NCBI RefSeq assembly: GCF_003207825.1
Contig: NZ_NKTY01000025.1
Location: 1 to 44,744, forward strand
Direction of reading: 5' to 3'
Length of the DNA: 44,744 nt
Source of the DNA: Komagataeibacter saccharivorans
GTDB lineage: Bacteria > Pseudomonadota > Alphaproteobacteria > Acetobacterales > Acetobacteraceae
Made by a program: the position numbers and the translations under genes. Positions 5,153 through 41,882 of the stretch are shown here, one piece after another (within the stretch, counting starts at the first letter, position 1; each line of letters begins with the position of its first letter). The notes below the pieces were generated by a model. The model searched no databases. It was not told where the DNA came from and was given only the letters and a program-made list of their open reading frames with translations.

Positions 5153-5671
5153 TCAGGAATGCGACATGATGCGATACATGAACAGCAGGTCCATCCATCG
5201 GCCGAATTTGGTGCCGCATTCGGGTATCAGGCCCCCGTGCTGGAAGCCAAAGCGTTCATGCAGCAGGCGTGACGCGACATTGGTGGAGGTAATGCCCCCC
5301 ACCATGACATGCACGTTTTCCGCCATCGCCCGGTCACACAGCGCCTGCAGCAGCGCGCTGCCAATGCCCTGCCGCTTGTAGGCGGGCGCGATATAGACCG
5401 AATGTTCGACCGTATGGATGTAGCCAGAAAATGGCCGGAACATTTTCCAGCTACTGTATCCCGCAACACTGCCATCGGGCATTTCCGCCACCAGAACCGG
5501 ATAGCCGCTGGCCTGACTGGAATGCAGCCATTCCAGCCGCGCGGCTACCGTGGTTTCGTTGGTTTCCCACATGGTGGTGCTGTTGCGGATGGCGTGATTG
5601 ACGATTTCGACAATCGCCGGAATGTCCGCGTCCGTTGCGTCGCGGATCAGCAGGGCGGGTCTGTCAGCCAT
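5153..5671 (-). CDS. GNAT N-acetyltransferase of the phosphinothricin acetyltransferase (Pat/MddA) type
   Basis: 172 aa, single GNAT domain. IRDATDADIPAIVEIVNHAI at the N-terminus and HSVYIAPAYKRQGIGSALLQ (acetyl-CoA pyrophosphate-binding R/Q-x-x-G-x-G/A loop) match the Pat family. GGITSTNVASRLLHERFGF is the typical beta-bulge and C-terminal helix. Such enzymes acetylate the amino group of methionine sulfone/sulfoximine or phosphinothricin-like compounds; the natural substrate here cannot be read. The gene starts 8 bp inside the end of prmA and has no clear SD of its own, suggesting translational coupling within a uvrD-prmA-pat operon. Confidence 0.82.
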   Translation of the reverse strand: MADRPALLIRDATDADIPAIVEIVNHAIRNSTTMWETNETTVAARLEWLHSSQASGYPVLVAEMPDGSVAGYSSWKMFRPFSGYIHTVEHSVYIAPAYKRQGIGSALLQALCDRAMAENVHVMVGGITSTNVASRLLHERFGFQHGGLIPECGTKFGRWMDLLFMYRIMSHS

Positions 5672-39226: not shown

Positions 39227-39703
39227 CTACCCTTCCCACAGATGGCCGGGCATCGCGTCATAATGCCGTGTCAGCATATCCAGCAGCAGCGCCAGCACGC
39301 CATCCATATGCTGCGGCGTGGCAGGTACAACCCGAGAGGTTTCCTCCCGTGCCGGTCGCCCATGGATCAGCGCCGCGATCAGGATGCGTTCGTAACGATA
39401 GCCGATAATGCCATGGATATAGCGGTAGCGGTTGATCGACCCCCGCCGTCCGTTCAGGGGACGATGGGACAGGCCGCATGACGTGCGGTCCAGTTGCGGA
39501 TCTTCCTGCCCCATGACCCCGATGCGGTAATCCGCAGCCCAGAACCGGGCCGCCGCGATATGGTGGGGGGCGATGATGCCGTTGCGGCGCAGGGCCTCGA
39601 TCGCGGGGGGCAGGGGCAAACCGCATCCGTCATCCCCGCCGGATGCAGATGGCGGGGCAGGCAGGGAAAACAGACGGTCAGCAGGCAAGAAGTGCCCTTT
39701 CAT
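39227..39703 (-). CDS. Hypothetical protein, weak resemblance to DUF6456 domain
   Basis: 158 aa. An N-terminal Pro/Gly-rich tail is followed by IEALRRNGIIAPHHIAAARF, a helical middle and MDGVLALLLDMLTRHYD at the end. The spacing of the RRNG-I-x-x-x-H-x-x-AA-R block and the final L-x-x-L-x-RHY helix recalls DUF6456 proteins of alphaproteobacteria, but the similarity is weak. No signal peptide or TM, no strong SD before the ATG. The coding character matches its neighbours. Could also be a partial or spurious frame. Confidence 0.5.
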   Translation of the reverse strand: MKGHFLPADRLFSLPAPPSASGGDDGCGLPLPPAIEALRRNGIIAPHHIAAARFWAADYRIGVMGQEDPQLDRTSCGLSHRPLNGRRGSINRYRYIHGIIGYRYERILIAALIHGRPAREETSRVVPATPQHMDGVLALLLDMLTRHYDAMPGHLWEG

Positions 39704-39950: not shown

Positions 39951-39989
39951 AAAAAAAACGGCACCACCCCGTTGGAGGGGGTGATGCCG
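39951..39989 (-). terminator. Intrinsic terminator of the candidate small RNA
   Basis: On the minus strand CGGCATCACCCC, loop CTCCAAC, GGGGTGGTGCCG gives a 12-bp stem with one G-U pair, immediately followed by eight T. Neither neighbouring protein gene ends here on the minus strand, so the terminator must serve another transcript. Confidence 0.88.
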
Positions 39990-40050
39990 CAAGGTGCCGT
40001 GGGAAAAGTCGGGAAATCGACGGTTGGGAATCTGCCGGGACCCACGGGGT
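39951..40050 (-). ncRNA. Candidate iron-responsive small RNA
   Basis: About 100 nt on the minus strand between a Fur-box promoter (40057-40085) and an intrinsic terminator (39951-39989), with no credible ORF. The expected 5' end is near 40050. The RNA contains three UUCCC runs (UUCCCAACC, UUUCCCGAC, UUUUCCCAC), complements of GGGAA-type ribosome-binding sites, and the terminator loop CUCCAAC also carries an anti-SD CUCC. By analogy to RyhB/PrrF, it would be made under iron starvation and repress iron-using targets. Not recognised as a known family. Confidence 0.65.
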
Positions 40051-40056
40051 GAATTC

Positions 40057-40085
40057 CCTATACTGATAATAATTATCATTATCAA
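40057..40085 (-). promoter_or_regulatory. Sigma-70 promoter with embedded Fur box
   Basis: Minus strand: -35 TTGATA, 17-bp spacer, -10 TATAGG (40057-40062). The Fur box GATAATGATAATTATTATC (40065-40083) matches the classical 19-bp consensus at 18 of 19 positions and covers the spacer and part of the -35, so iron-loaded Fur would block RNA polymerase. The box could also act on the plus-strand gene starting at 40182, 98 bp away. Confidence 0.8.
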
Positions 40086-40181: not shown

Positions 40182-41882
40182 ATGGCCATTACACCGCTTG
40201 AGGTCGCAGCACAGCGCACAGGGGGACGGCGCGGGGCCGATATTCTGCTGGAAATCCTGGAAAGTGAGGGGGTGCGCTACATATTCGGCAACCCCGGCAC
40301 GACGGAACTGCCGCTGATTGATGCGCTCCAGCGTCGCCCGGACCTGAGCTACATCCTCGCCCTGCAGGAAGCGAGCGTGGTGGCGATGGCCGATGGCTAT
40401 GCGCAGGCGGCGGGGCGGCCGGGTTTCCTTAACCTGCATACGGCTGGTGGGCTGGGTCATGGCATGGGCAATCTGCTCAATGCCAGTGTGTCGCAGACGC
40501 CGCTGGTCGTGACGGCGGGCCAGCAGGATTCGCGCCATACGATTTCCGATCCGCTGCTGTTTGGTGATCTGGTCAGCATCGCAACGCCTGCGGTCAAATG
40601 GGCGCAGGAAGTCCTGCATGCGGACCAGTTACCGGTGCTGGTGCGCCGGGCTTTCAACGATTCAATGGCCGCCCCGTCCGGCCCGGTTTTCCTCTCCCTG
40701 CCCATGGATGTGATGGAGGAACCCAGTGATATCGGCATCGGCGCACCGTCCGTCATCAATCGGGAATCCATAGCAGGTGGCCTGCCTGAACTGGCCCGTG
40801 CGCTGGCGGGTATCACGCCGGGGCGACTTGCCATCATCGCGGGGGATGAAGTGCATGGGGCCAATGCCGCAACGCAGGTCGCGGCGGTAGCGGAACTGCT
40901 GGGTGCGCCGGTTTATGGCGCATCATGGCCGTCGCGCATTCCGTTTGCCACGTCCTGTCCGCTATGGGCAGGAAACATGCCCACCCGTGCCACCGATATC
41001 GCACGCCGTCTGGCGGATTATGATGCGATCTTCGCGCTGGGCGGCAAATCGCTGATTACCATCCTGTATTCCGAAGGCTCGCCCGTGCCGCCGTCCTGCG
41101 CGGTCTATCAGGTCTCGGCTGATGCGCGGGATCTTGGTCGTACGTTCCAGACCCCGCTTTCGCTTGTGGGCAATATCCGTGCCTCTCTTGATGTTCTGCT
41201 TCCCCTGCTGGAACGCGAAACACAGCCCCGTCAGGCGCAGTTCCGTACCGCAAGGGAGGTTGTCGTCGCGGCCCGCAACAGCAAACGGAACGAGGCTGAA
41301 CAACTGGTCGCCCGGCATCGGGCCGATCCGGTCATCGCCCCGTGTGTTGCAGCCCATGAAGCCGTGCGGGCCATTGGTCCCCATGTTGCAATCGTGGACG
41401 AGGCCATTGCCACGTCATCCTATGTGCGCATGTTCCTGAACAGTGACTGGGTTGCGCAGTATTCCTTCCTGCGTGGTGGCGCGCTGGGCTGGGGCATGCC
41501 TGCCGCAGTCGGCGCATCGCTGGGGCTGGGACGTGAGCCGGTCGTCTGTCTTGTCGGGGACGGCGCGGCACTCTATTCGCCGCAGGCATTGTGGACCGCC
41601 GCACATGAACGGCTGCCGGTAACCTTCGTGGTCATGAACAACCGCGAATATAACGTGCTGAAAGGTTTCATGCGGGGACAGACGCATTACGTCTCGGCGC
41701 GTGAAGGCAATTTCCTGGCAATGGATATTAACGATCCACCGGTGGATTATCAGGCGATGGCGCGTTCTTACGGGCTGGAATCGCGCCTCATCACGCGTGT
41801 AGGTGATATTGCCCCCGCCATCGAGGCCGCGATGGCTTCCGGCCGCCCCAACGTGGTGGAGATCATGATCAGCACGGTCTGA
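40182..41882 (+). CDS. mdlC: Thiamine-diphosphate-dependent decarboxylase, benzoylformate decarboxylase-like
   Basis: 566 aa. Layout PYR domain (about 15-180), central domain, PP domain (about 385-560). FGNPGTTELPLIDALQRRP, ILALQEASVVAMADGYAQAA with the cofactor Glu63 and FLNLHTAGGLGHGMGNLLNA with His86 follow benzoylformate decarboxylase; GDGAALYSPQALWTAAHERL with Gly459-Asp460-Gly461 and MNNREYN is the ThDP/Mg motif. The second catalytic His of the family cannot be assigned by eye. Substrate is a 2-oxo acid; benzoylformate itself is uncertain, and other aryl/branched 2-oxo acid or oxalyl-type decarboxylases are possible. AGGGAAAG precedes ATG 40182; upstream lies a Fur box. Confidence 0.8.
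   Translation: MAITPLEVAAQRTGGRRGADILLEILESEGVRYIFGNPGTTELPLIDALQRRPDLSYILALQEASVVAMADGYAQAAGRPGFLNLHTAGGLGHGMGNLLNASVSQTPLVVTAGQQDSRHTISDPLLFGDLVSIATPAVKWAQEVLHADQLPVLVRRAFNDSMAAPSGPVFLSLPMDVMEEPSDIGIGAPSVINRESIAGGLPELARALAGITPGRLAIIAGDEVHGANAATQVAAVAELLGAPVYGASWPSRIPFATSCPLWAGNMPTRATDIARRLADYDAIFALGGKSLITILYSEGSPVPPSCAVYQVSADARDLGRTFQTPLSLVGNIRASLDVLLPLLERETQPRQAQFRTAREVVVAARNSKRNEAEQLVARHRADPVIAPCVAAHEAVRAIGPHVAIVDEAIATSSYVRMFLNSDWVAQYSFLRGGALGWGMPAAVGASLGLGREPVVCLVGDGAALYSPQALWTAAHERLPVTFVVMNNREYNVLKGFMRGQTHYVSAREGNFLAMDINDPPVDYQAMARSYGLESRLITRVGDIAPAIEAAMASGRPNVVEIMISTV

Follow-up and report, generated by a model that had tools for sequence, protein, structure and literature searches.

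A small RNA gene, the status of which is well supported and in our judgment close to certain, lies on the minus strand of the window, i.e., the whole stretch of 44,744 nt from Komagataeibacter saccharivorans analyzed here. We propose that this gene encodes a stand-alone RNA that is repressed by Fur and is likely to spare iron by regulating sdhC and acnA, a reading that is supported, not proven. An iron-sparing RNA of the RyhB/PrrF kind was also what a sequence-only reading of this DNA had suggested, and conservation, covariation and complementarity to sdhC and acnA support that suggestion. The RNA represents a new sequence family of a known functional kind, apparently undescribed in these bacteria. 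The coordinates of the gene and its surroundings are collected in Table 1.

Table 1. Features of the small RNA locus in the window, in the order of transcription of the RNA, followed by the flanking genes
Feature	Positions	Strand	Basis
-35 hexamer TTGATA	40080..40085	-	Sequence; TTG hexamer at the equivalent place in 18/18 type I loci
Candidate Fur box GATAATGATAATTATTATC within the promoter	40065..40083	-	17-18/19 positions matched in 18/18 type I loci
-10 hexamer TATAGG, weak	40057..40062	-	Sequence
Small RNA as modelled, start near 40050 inferred	39951..40052	-	Sequence, conservation, fold
Stem P1, 5' strand CCGUGGG	40041..40047	-	5/7 pairs changed on both sides
Possible hairpin P2, 5' strand CGGC	40034..40037	-	93% of cells paired, changes mostly one-sided
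Predicted acnA seed CCCAACCGUC	40019..40028	-	10-nt complement in 6/9 genomes, 8 nt in 3
Possible hairpin P2, 3' strand GUCG	40018..40021	-	Alignment, same reservations as for the 5' strand
Predicted sdhC seed CGUCGAUUUCCC	40011..40022	-	12-nt complement to the sdhC leader in 9/9 genomes
Stem P1, 3' strand CCCACGG	39997..40003	-	Covariation
Intrinsic terminator, 13-pair stem followed by T	39951..39990	-	Fold and terminator scan; 8/12 pairs changed on both sides in the family
158-aa frame downstream, unknown family, outside the RNA	39227..39703	-	Syntenic in type I loci
Divergent thiamine-pyrophosphate enzyme gene, syntenic flank	40185..41882	+	Best NCBIfam match benzoylformate decarboxylase, below cut-off

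The gene is located between a divergent gene for a thiamine-pyrophosphate enzyme and a variable gene of 158 codons, an arrangement referred to here as a type I locus. The latter gene had been described as having its own frame from 39703, and a 158-aa minus-strand frame indeed starts there. A promoter of the form TTGATA-N17-TATAGG with an 18-of-19 Fur box had also been described, and is found at 40085-40057, where the candidate Fur box GATAATGATAATTATTATC differs from the classical consensus GATAATGATAATCATTATC by one mismatch. Shuffles of the window gave 0.01 matches to the Fur box at up to three mismatches, and GATAATGATAATNATTATC without mismatch was found at only one site in the K. saccharivorans genome, the candidate box of the small RNA itself. 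With up to three mismatches to the Fur box pattern, the search of this genome returned 11 rows, which represent seven distinct places, and two rows for the reversed pattern. Three of the six other box-like places are associated with an Fe2+ transport cluster, an ECF-sigma/FecR pair and a homologue of the 325-aa gene found beside type II copies (see below); among the remaining three, one lies inside the frame of a TonB receptor and two have no iron link. Since the other box-like places include iron-linked genes, this classical type of box is plausibly a Fur box in the organism. The conservation of the box in relatives likewise agrees with what had been expected, as all 18 type I loci carry the candidate box in the promoter of the small RNA. 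The -10 hexamer TATAGG scores only 4/6 and the promoter was missing from a scan that requires T at position 6; 14 of the 18 type I loci have TATCAA, TATCAG or TATTAA at this place, none of which is better by count.

The sequence of the RNA points to a short non-coding unit with an intrinsic terminator and a conserved structure. The predicted fold of positions 40052-39951 has an energy of -42.4 kcal/mol (z = -4.3), and none of 200 shuffled sequences folded as well. A strong terminator does follow after about 100 nt of RNA, as had been claimed, although its stem (39990-39958) counts 13 pairs by two methods and not 12; the T run, which gives the RNA a U-rich tail, extends to 39951. The three UUCCC runs and the CUCC in the terminator loop noted earlier are also present, with the third run overlapping the 3' strand of P1. 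While the idea of a stand-alone small RNA is supported by the conservation of the RNA, the RNA is in fact a member of a family with paralogues, and the informative part is the core UUCCCAACCGUCGAUUUCCC.

BLAST searches with a 160-nt region identified matches in 18 of 19 genomes of the same genus (including the genome analyzed) and in 13 of 249 genomes of the family, some of the latter merely at the Fur box or another short piece. Some matched genomes have a second locus, here referred to as type II, in which the core is the same but the box and the letters of the stem differ. As a genome missed by BLAST (G259) carries a type II copy, all 19 genomes of the genus that were searched have at least one copy. 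A first covariance model, built from 24 sequences, matched 24 of 328 family genomes, a count that includes one match (L058/G199) later dropped because neither box nor core could be recognized by eye. A second model, built from 43 sequences, matched 46 of 346 genomes in a sample of the order; 36 of these 346 had matches of at least 40 bits, and these represent five genera (18 genomes in g1, 12 in g43, 4 in g73 and one each in g10 and g31). Two matches of at least 40 bits were found in 13 of the 18 g1 genomes. Only four genomes in a class-wide sample of 385 were matched, namely the K. saccharivorans genome, which gave the only strong match, and three weak ones without box or core. A pattern scan of named genomes yielded 40 stretches, of which Komagataeibacter, Novacetimonas and Gluconacetobacter account for 36. 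The stretches in Okibacterium, a Ruminococcus MAG, Altererythrobacter and a Clostridia MAG are probably chance matches, about four of which are expected by our own estimate, and no syntenic genes are found there. Overall, the conservation in related genomes that the sequence-only reading had called for was observed, with the core kept, P1 and the terminator covarying and the box present in 18 of 18 type I loci.

Twelve weaker places in the covariance searches were inspected by eye. Eleven of these (all below 36 bits) have neither box nor core; ten resemble terminators and one, L273, not even that. The twelfth (L264, 1001-1120, plus strand; 43 bits), in a g43 genome, is a real copy that looks decayed; the core of this second copy is changed to CATCGATTTTCC, its box resembles that of type II, and the downstream gene is present. 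Some weak rows in the order sample are antisense to true copies. A similarity search of plasmids gave no match, and the window contained no match to 4227 Rfam families at the gathering score. With E values up to 10, five loci gave five weak and unrelated matches, none of them to the covariance models of RyhB, PrrF, NrrF or FsrA, which we take to be among the Rfam families.

In the alignment of 43 sequences, 96.1% of the cells in P1, P2 and the terminator form standard pairs and 14 of 23 pairs are changed on both sides; no column shuffle out of 500 reached this pairing percentage and two-sided count, while the number of further pair types was equalled by 74 of the 500. When the partners were slid by one to three columns, pairing fell to 28-52%. 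P1 is CCGUGGG/CCCACGG in type I copies and UCACGGC/GCCGUGA, among other versions, in type II copies. Kinship of the sequences inflates covariation counts, but such a swap of whole P1 stems between types is hard to account for in another way. P2 was added by hand to the RNAalifold consensus, where it is missing for the 43 sequences and represented by three pairs for the 24 sequences. In the best fold of the K. saccharivorans RNA, P2 is replaced by another pairing that occupies part of the core, and single-sequence folds of relatives contain P2 in some cases and not in others. A P2 hairpin that would display CCCAACC is probable only.

Type I and type II copies differ in their neighbors. The 158-aa protein follows type I copies wherever the stretch reaches far enough, is 56-72% identical to its relatives and has no Pfam or NCBIfam match; its gene starts 150 to 609 nt from the core. 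Type II copies have as their neighbor a divergent dps gene, a gene of about 325 codons that follows directly downstream, or both, one on each side; in several Gluconacetobacter genomes there is one copy at dps and another at the 325-codon gene. The assignment of dps is based on a ferritin-like domain and a best NCBIfam match to Dps that is below the curated cut-off; a gene near another copy is a bacterioferritin by profile match. Iron-storage genes near type II copies include L063:1759-2301 (+), L056:759-1325 (-) and L054:128-616 (+), and dps, where divergent from the RNA, starts about 160-300 nt from the core. The conserved protein encoded directly behind type II copies (318-331 aa, MSETTGC...WHLxHS; L032:436-1422 (-), L063:501-1478 (-) and homologues) has no Pfam, NCBIfam or PDB sequence match, and a fair structure model of the protein (mean pLDDT 82) gave no match to a PDB fold with an E value of 0.001 or lower. 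The K. saccharivorans genome has the type I copy only; its homologue of the 325-aa gene (L150:288-1283 (-)) is preceded by a Fur-like box about 220 nt upstream, without the RNA. The type II box is not classical and resembles the footprinted Fur operator of Magnetospirillum (PMC4506495), with at least 13 of 19 positions matched in 24 of 25 loci. As 12-15 positions are also matched by the best-scoring shuffle among 100 for each locus, the likeness of the type II box to a Fur operator is suggestive only.

RNAs of the RyhB kind typically act on sdhC and acnA. These two genes and leuC were picked beforehand in view of this kind of action, with leuC and acnA recognized by the Pfam Aconitase family, and were compared with the core in nine genomes from three genera. 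The sdhC leader contains GGGAAAT[C/T]GACG at -20 to -9 in all nine, which allows 12 contiguous pairs with the core segment CGUCGAUUUCCC, including one G-U in the six genomes with T in the leader. In acnA, GACGGTTGGG, which extends from the last base of codon 2 to codon 5, is found in six genomes and is a 10-nt complement of CCCAACCGUC; the three Gluconacetobacter genomes have CGGTTGGG and an 8-nt complement. The codons at the acnA site include GTT, an uncommon valine codon (0.11 in the sample), and GGG (0.23 of glycine). For leuC, the complement in the nine genomes is 6-8 nt, which is nothing special. The fit of sdhC and acnA agrees with the RyhB/PrrF-like function suggested before, but the predicted sites are a leader segment upstream of the sdhC start and early acnA codons rather than the generic GGGAA ribosome-binding sites that had been envisaged.

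Contiguous pairing was also ranked over 208 gene starts, obtained with a simple gene finder from the window and 9% of the K. saccharivorans genome, with the sdh region (contig 44) in the sample by prior knowledge. In this set sdhC was joint first, and acnA, which is outside the sample, would be third. Shuffled cores paired as well in 0 of 2000 cases for sdhC and in 9 of 2000 for acnA. A search for the exact site in six genomes, with at most five loci per genome, listed 28 sites, including six in sdhC (one per genome), nine in the RNA genes themselves and 13 others, some of which are in Walker-A codons by eye. Among the sites listed, sdhC is the only gene recurring in all six genomes; an exact site common to L237 and L238 was discarded, as it lies opposite a long frame, in antisense orientation. 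The exact sdhC site is likewise present in three more g43 genomes that carry a copy, which brings the count for the three core genera to 12 of the 12 genomes examined.

The predicted complementarity to mRNAs of iron enzymes (sdh, acn) has to be read against other measures, as cofolding ranks and part of the duplex matrix speak against it. By cofolding energy, sdhC ranked 82nd and acnA 17th of 208, perhaps because stable internal structures dominate, and duplex scores did not discriminate among the GC-rich leaders. In the same ranking, a minus-strand gene of L203 starting near 5206, by eye like 2-oxoglutarate dehydrogenase E2, had the best cofolding of all 208 and nine contiguous pairs, and two minus-strand genes of L201 (near 11405 and 14952), by eye like sufS and sufB, were third and tenth; these are possible targets. 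Moreover, the entire sdhC leader is conserved among these species, so that conservation of the site alone says little. The exact site is absent from four g31 genomes and from the g99 and g37 genomes looked at. No copy was reported for these four g31 genomes; the covariance search found only terminators in G338 and G341, and G169 and G242 were in the BLAST sample.

The g31 genome G117 has a diverged copy with the core GUAUCGUCGCCUCG, which is a 14-nt complement, with one G-U, of the ribosome-binding site and start codon of its own sdhC (0 of 2000 shuffles). As this 14-nt site is shared by G341, where no copy was found, it seems to be the RNA rather than the mRNA that has changed in G117. Another genome with a copy, G009, combines a CCCCC core with GGGGGA in sdhC, a bulged pairing with seven contiguous pairs (751 of 2000 shuffles as good). 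A matrix of duplex energies gave the best value with their own sdhC for two RNAs, those of G009 and G117 (the latter tied with G341). The K. saccharivorans RNA reached -28.3 with its own sdhC and better values with those of G332 (-31.1), the copy-less G169 (-30.6) and G009 (-29.0); the G332 RNA was slightly better with G169 sdhC (-35.0) than with its own (-34.1), and for the Novacetimonas RNA several foreign sdhC sequences were better than its own.

Taken as a mechanism, these features suggest that when iron is plentiful, Fe-Fur would sit on the promoter box and block transcription, and that the RNA would be made when iron is scarce. Sequence and covariation indicate an architecture in which P1 closes around the invariant core, followed by the terminator. 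The AUUUCCC stretch may make the first contact with the mRNA. The core could then pair with positions -20 to -9 of the sdhC leader, counted from the start codon, as well as with codons 2-5 of acnA, perhaps with the help of Hfq. Pairing would block the entry of ribosomes and expose the mRNAs to decay, and the iron-rich enzymes of the TCA cycle would consequently not be made.

Other explanations of the same element have to be weighed against this iron-sparing regulator. That a promoter and a terminator have met by chance without any function could be argued from the weak -10 hexamer in the window, yet in this simple form the idea is refuted by the conservation of the element, the covariation and the conservation of the box, and we give it practically no credence. 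A small peptide gene is just as exceedingly improbable. The earlier statement that the RNA contains no credible ORF needs to be qualified in that a GTG-started frame does exist: in 8 of the 18 type I copies (those translated), a frame that begins at the GTG in P1 runs through the RNA. The frame entering the RNA is not conserved, however, as it differs among copies through indels, and the stem of Komagataeibacter type II copies has no GTG there.

A more serious reading is that the element is a 5' leader, in which a Fur promoter and a terminator attenuate the downstream gene without any action in trans. Type II copies lend themselves to this, as they end a few nt before the ribosome-binding site of the 325-aa gene, the start of which closely follows the terminator, at +93 to +143 from the core in all such loci, and several of their T runs look weak by eye; type II copies may also be leaders of this uncharacterized gene. 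For the family as a whole the leader explanation is decidedly unlikely, given that the next gene of type I copies is at a variable distance and itself variable, that in Gluconacetobacter the stretches fetched contain no such gene after the dps copies, and that an invariant core complementary to sdhC and acnA would go unexplained. It is also unlikely, if somewhat easier to entertain, that the RNA is a real Fur-regulated small RNA with other main targets, such as membrane transporters, on which RusT of Caulobacter largely acts (PMC11005374), and that sdhC and acnA are by-products. C-rich cores can pair with many ribosome-binding sites and the cofolding ranking puts different genes on top, but the contiguous complementarity, the recurrence of sdhC in each of the six genomes that were scanned and the altered pairing in G117 favor the iron-sparing regulator of sdhC and acnA.

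An extended version of this proposal, tentative and on balance rather doubtful, is that at type II loci one Fur promoter may yield two products, the small RNA by termination and the mRNA of the ~325-aa protein by read-through, often with dps divergent; the protein could be a dedicated partner of the RNA, like Fbp for FsrA. This version further holds that the family may keep sdhC as a target while the pairing sequence is replaceable, with G117 representing a small RNA re-aimed at the same mRNA.

The use of iron-sparing RNAs is well known in other bacteria, and we found no description of it for the vinegar- and cellulose-making group. The present family provides a concrete candidate in acetic acid bacteria, with a named seed and two named targets. 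Should the RNA regulate sdhC and acnA, the flux through the TCA cycle would depend directly on the supply of iron, and so perhaps would acetate over-oxidation and the yield of cellulose in bacteria that produce vinegar and cellulose. Among the matches listed in a search of the open-access literature, there was no small RNA of this kind in acetic acid bacteria; passages from a review on their expression systems show that expression tools exist and mention only a synthetic small RNA used with E. coli Hfq (PMC8102297).

Fur-controlled iron-sparing RNAs have been reported from gamma- and betaproteobacteria and from Bacillales (PMC3751524, PMC11257911). In the case of Caulobacter, an alphaproteobacterium, it has been pointed out that no RNA of this type had been identified (PMC11005374), and there has been speculation on two small RNAs processed from a Fur-repressed operon and on an iron-responsive small RNA (PMC3751524). 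Caulobacter RusT, an NtrYX-controlled RNA of 118 nt induced by iron starvation and encoded at the lolA/xth locus (PMC11005374), resembles the proposed role of the new RNA in being an alphaproteobacterial small RNA of iron starvation. The two differ in their locus, as the flanking genes found for the new RNA are other than lolA and xth.

The enterobacterial RyhB and the PrrF1/PrrF2 pair of Pseudomonas are like the new RNA in having a Fur box at the promoter, a terminator and an action on sdh and aconitase, which is predicted for the new RNA. Both are about 100 nt long, as is the new RNA, and PrrF is present in two copies, as is the case in many genomes with the new family. The new RNA differs in being alphaproteobacterial and in matching no Rfam family. 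NrrF of Neisseria, which reportedly acts on sdhA/sdhC, and BrrF of Burkholderia have the same kind of target set, and again the new RNA has no Rfam match. The targets of BrrF are acnA, fumA, sdhA and sdhC; its gene lacks a Fur box immediately upstream, and the RNA is probably produced together with hemP (PMC7377471). Like the new RNA as proposed here, FsrA of Bacillus and IsrR of Staphylococcus are Fur-controlled and act on sdh and aconitase, although these belong to a different phylum; FsrA works with Fbp proteins, and IsrR has C-rich regions that are able to pair with ribosome-binding sites (PMC11257911). RyhB, PrrF, NrrF, BrrF, FsrA and IsrR are functional analogues that need not have a sequence in common (PMC7377471, PMC11257911).
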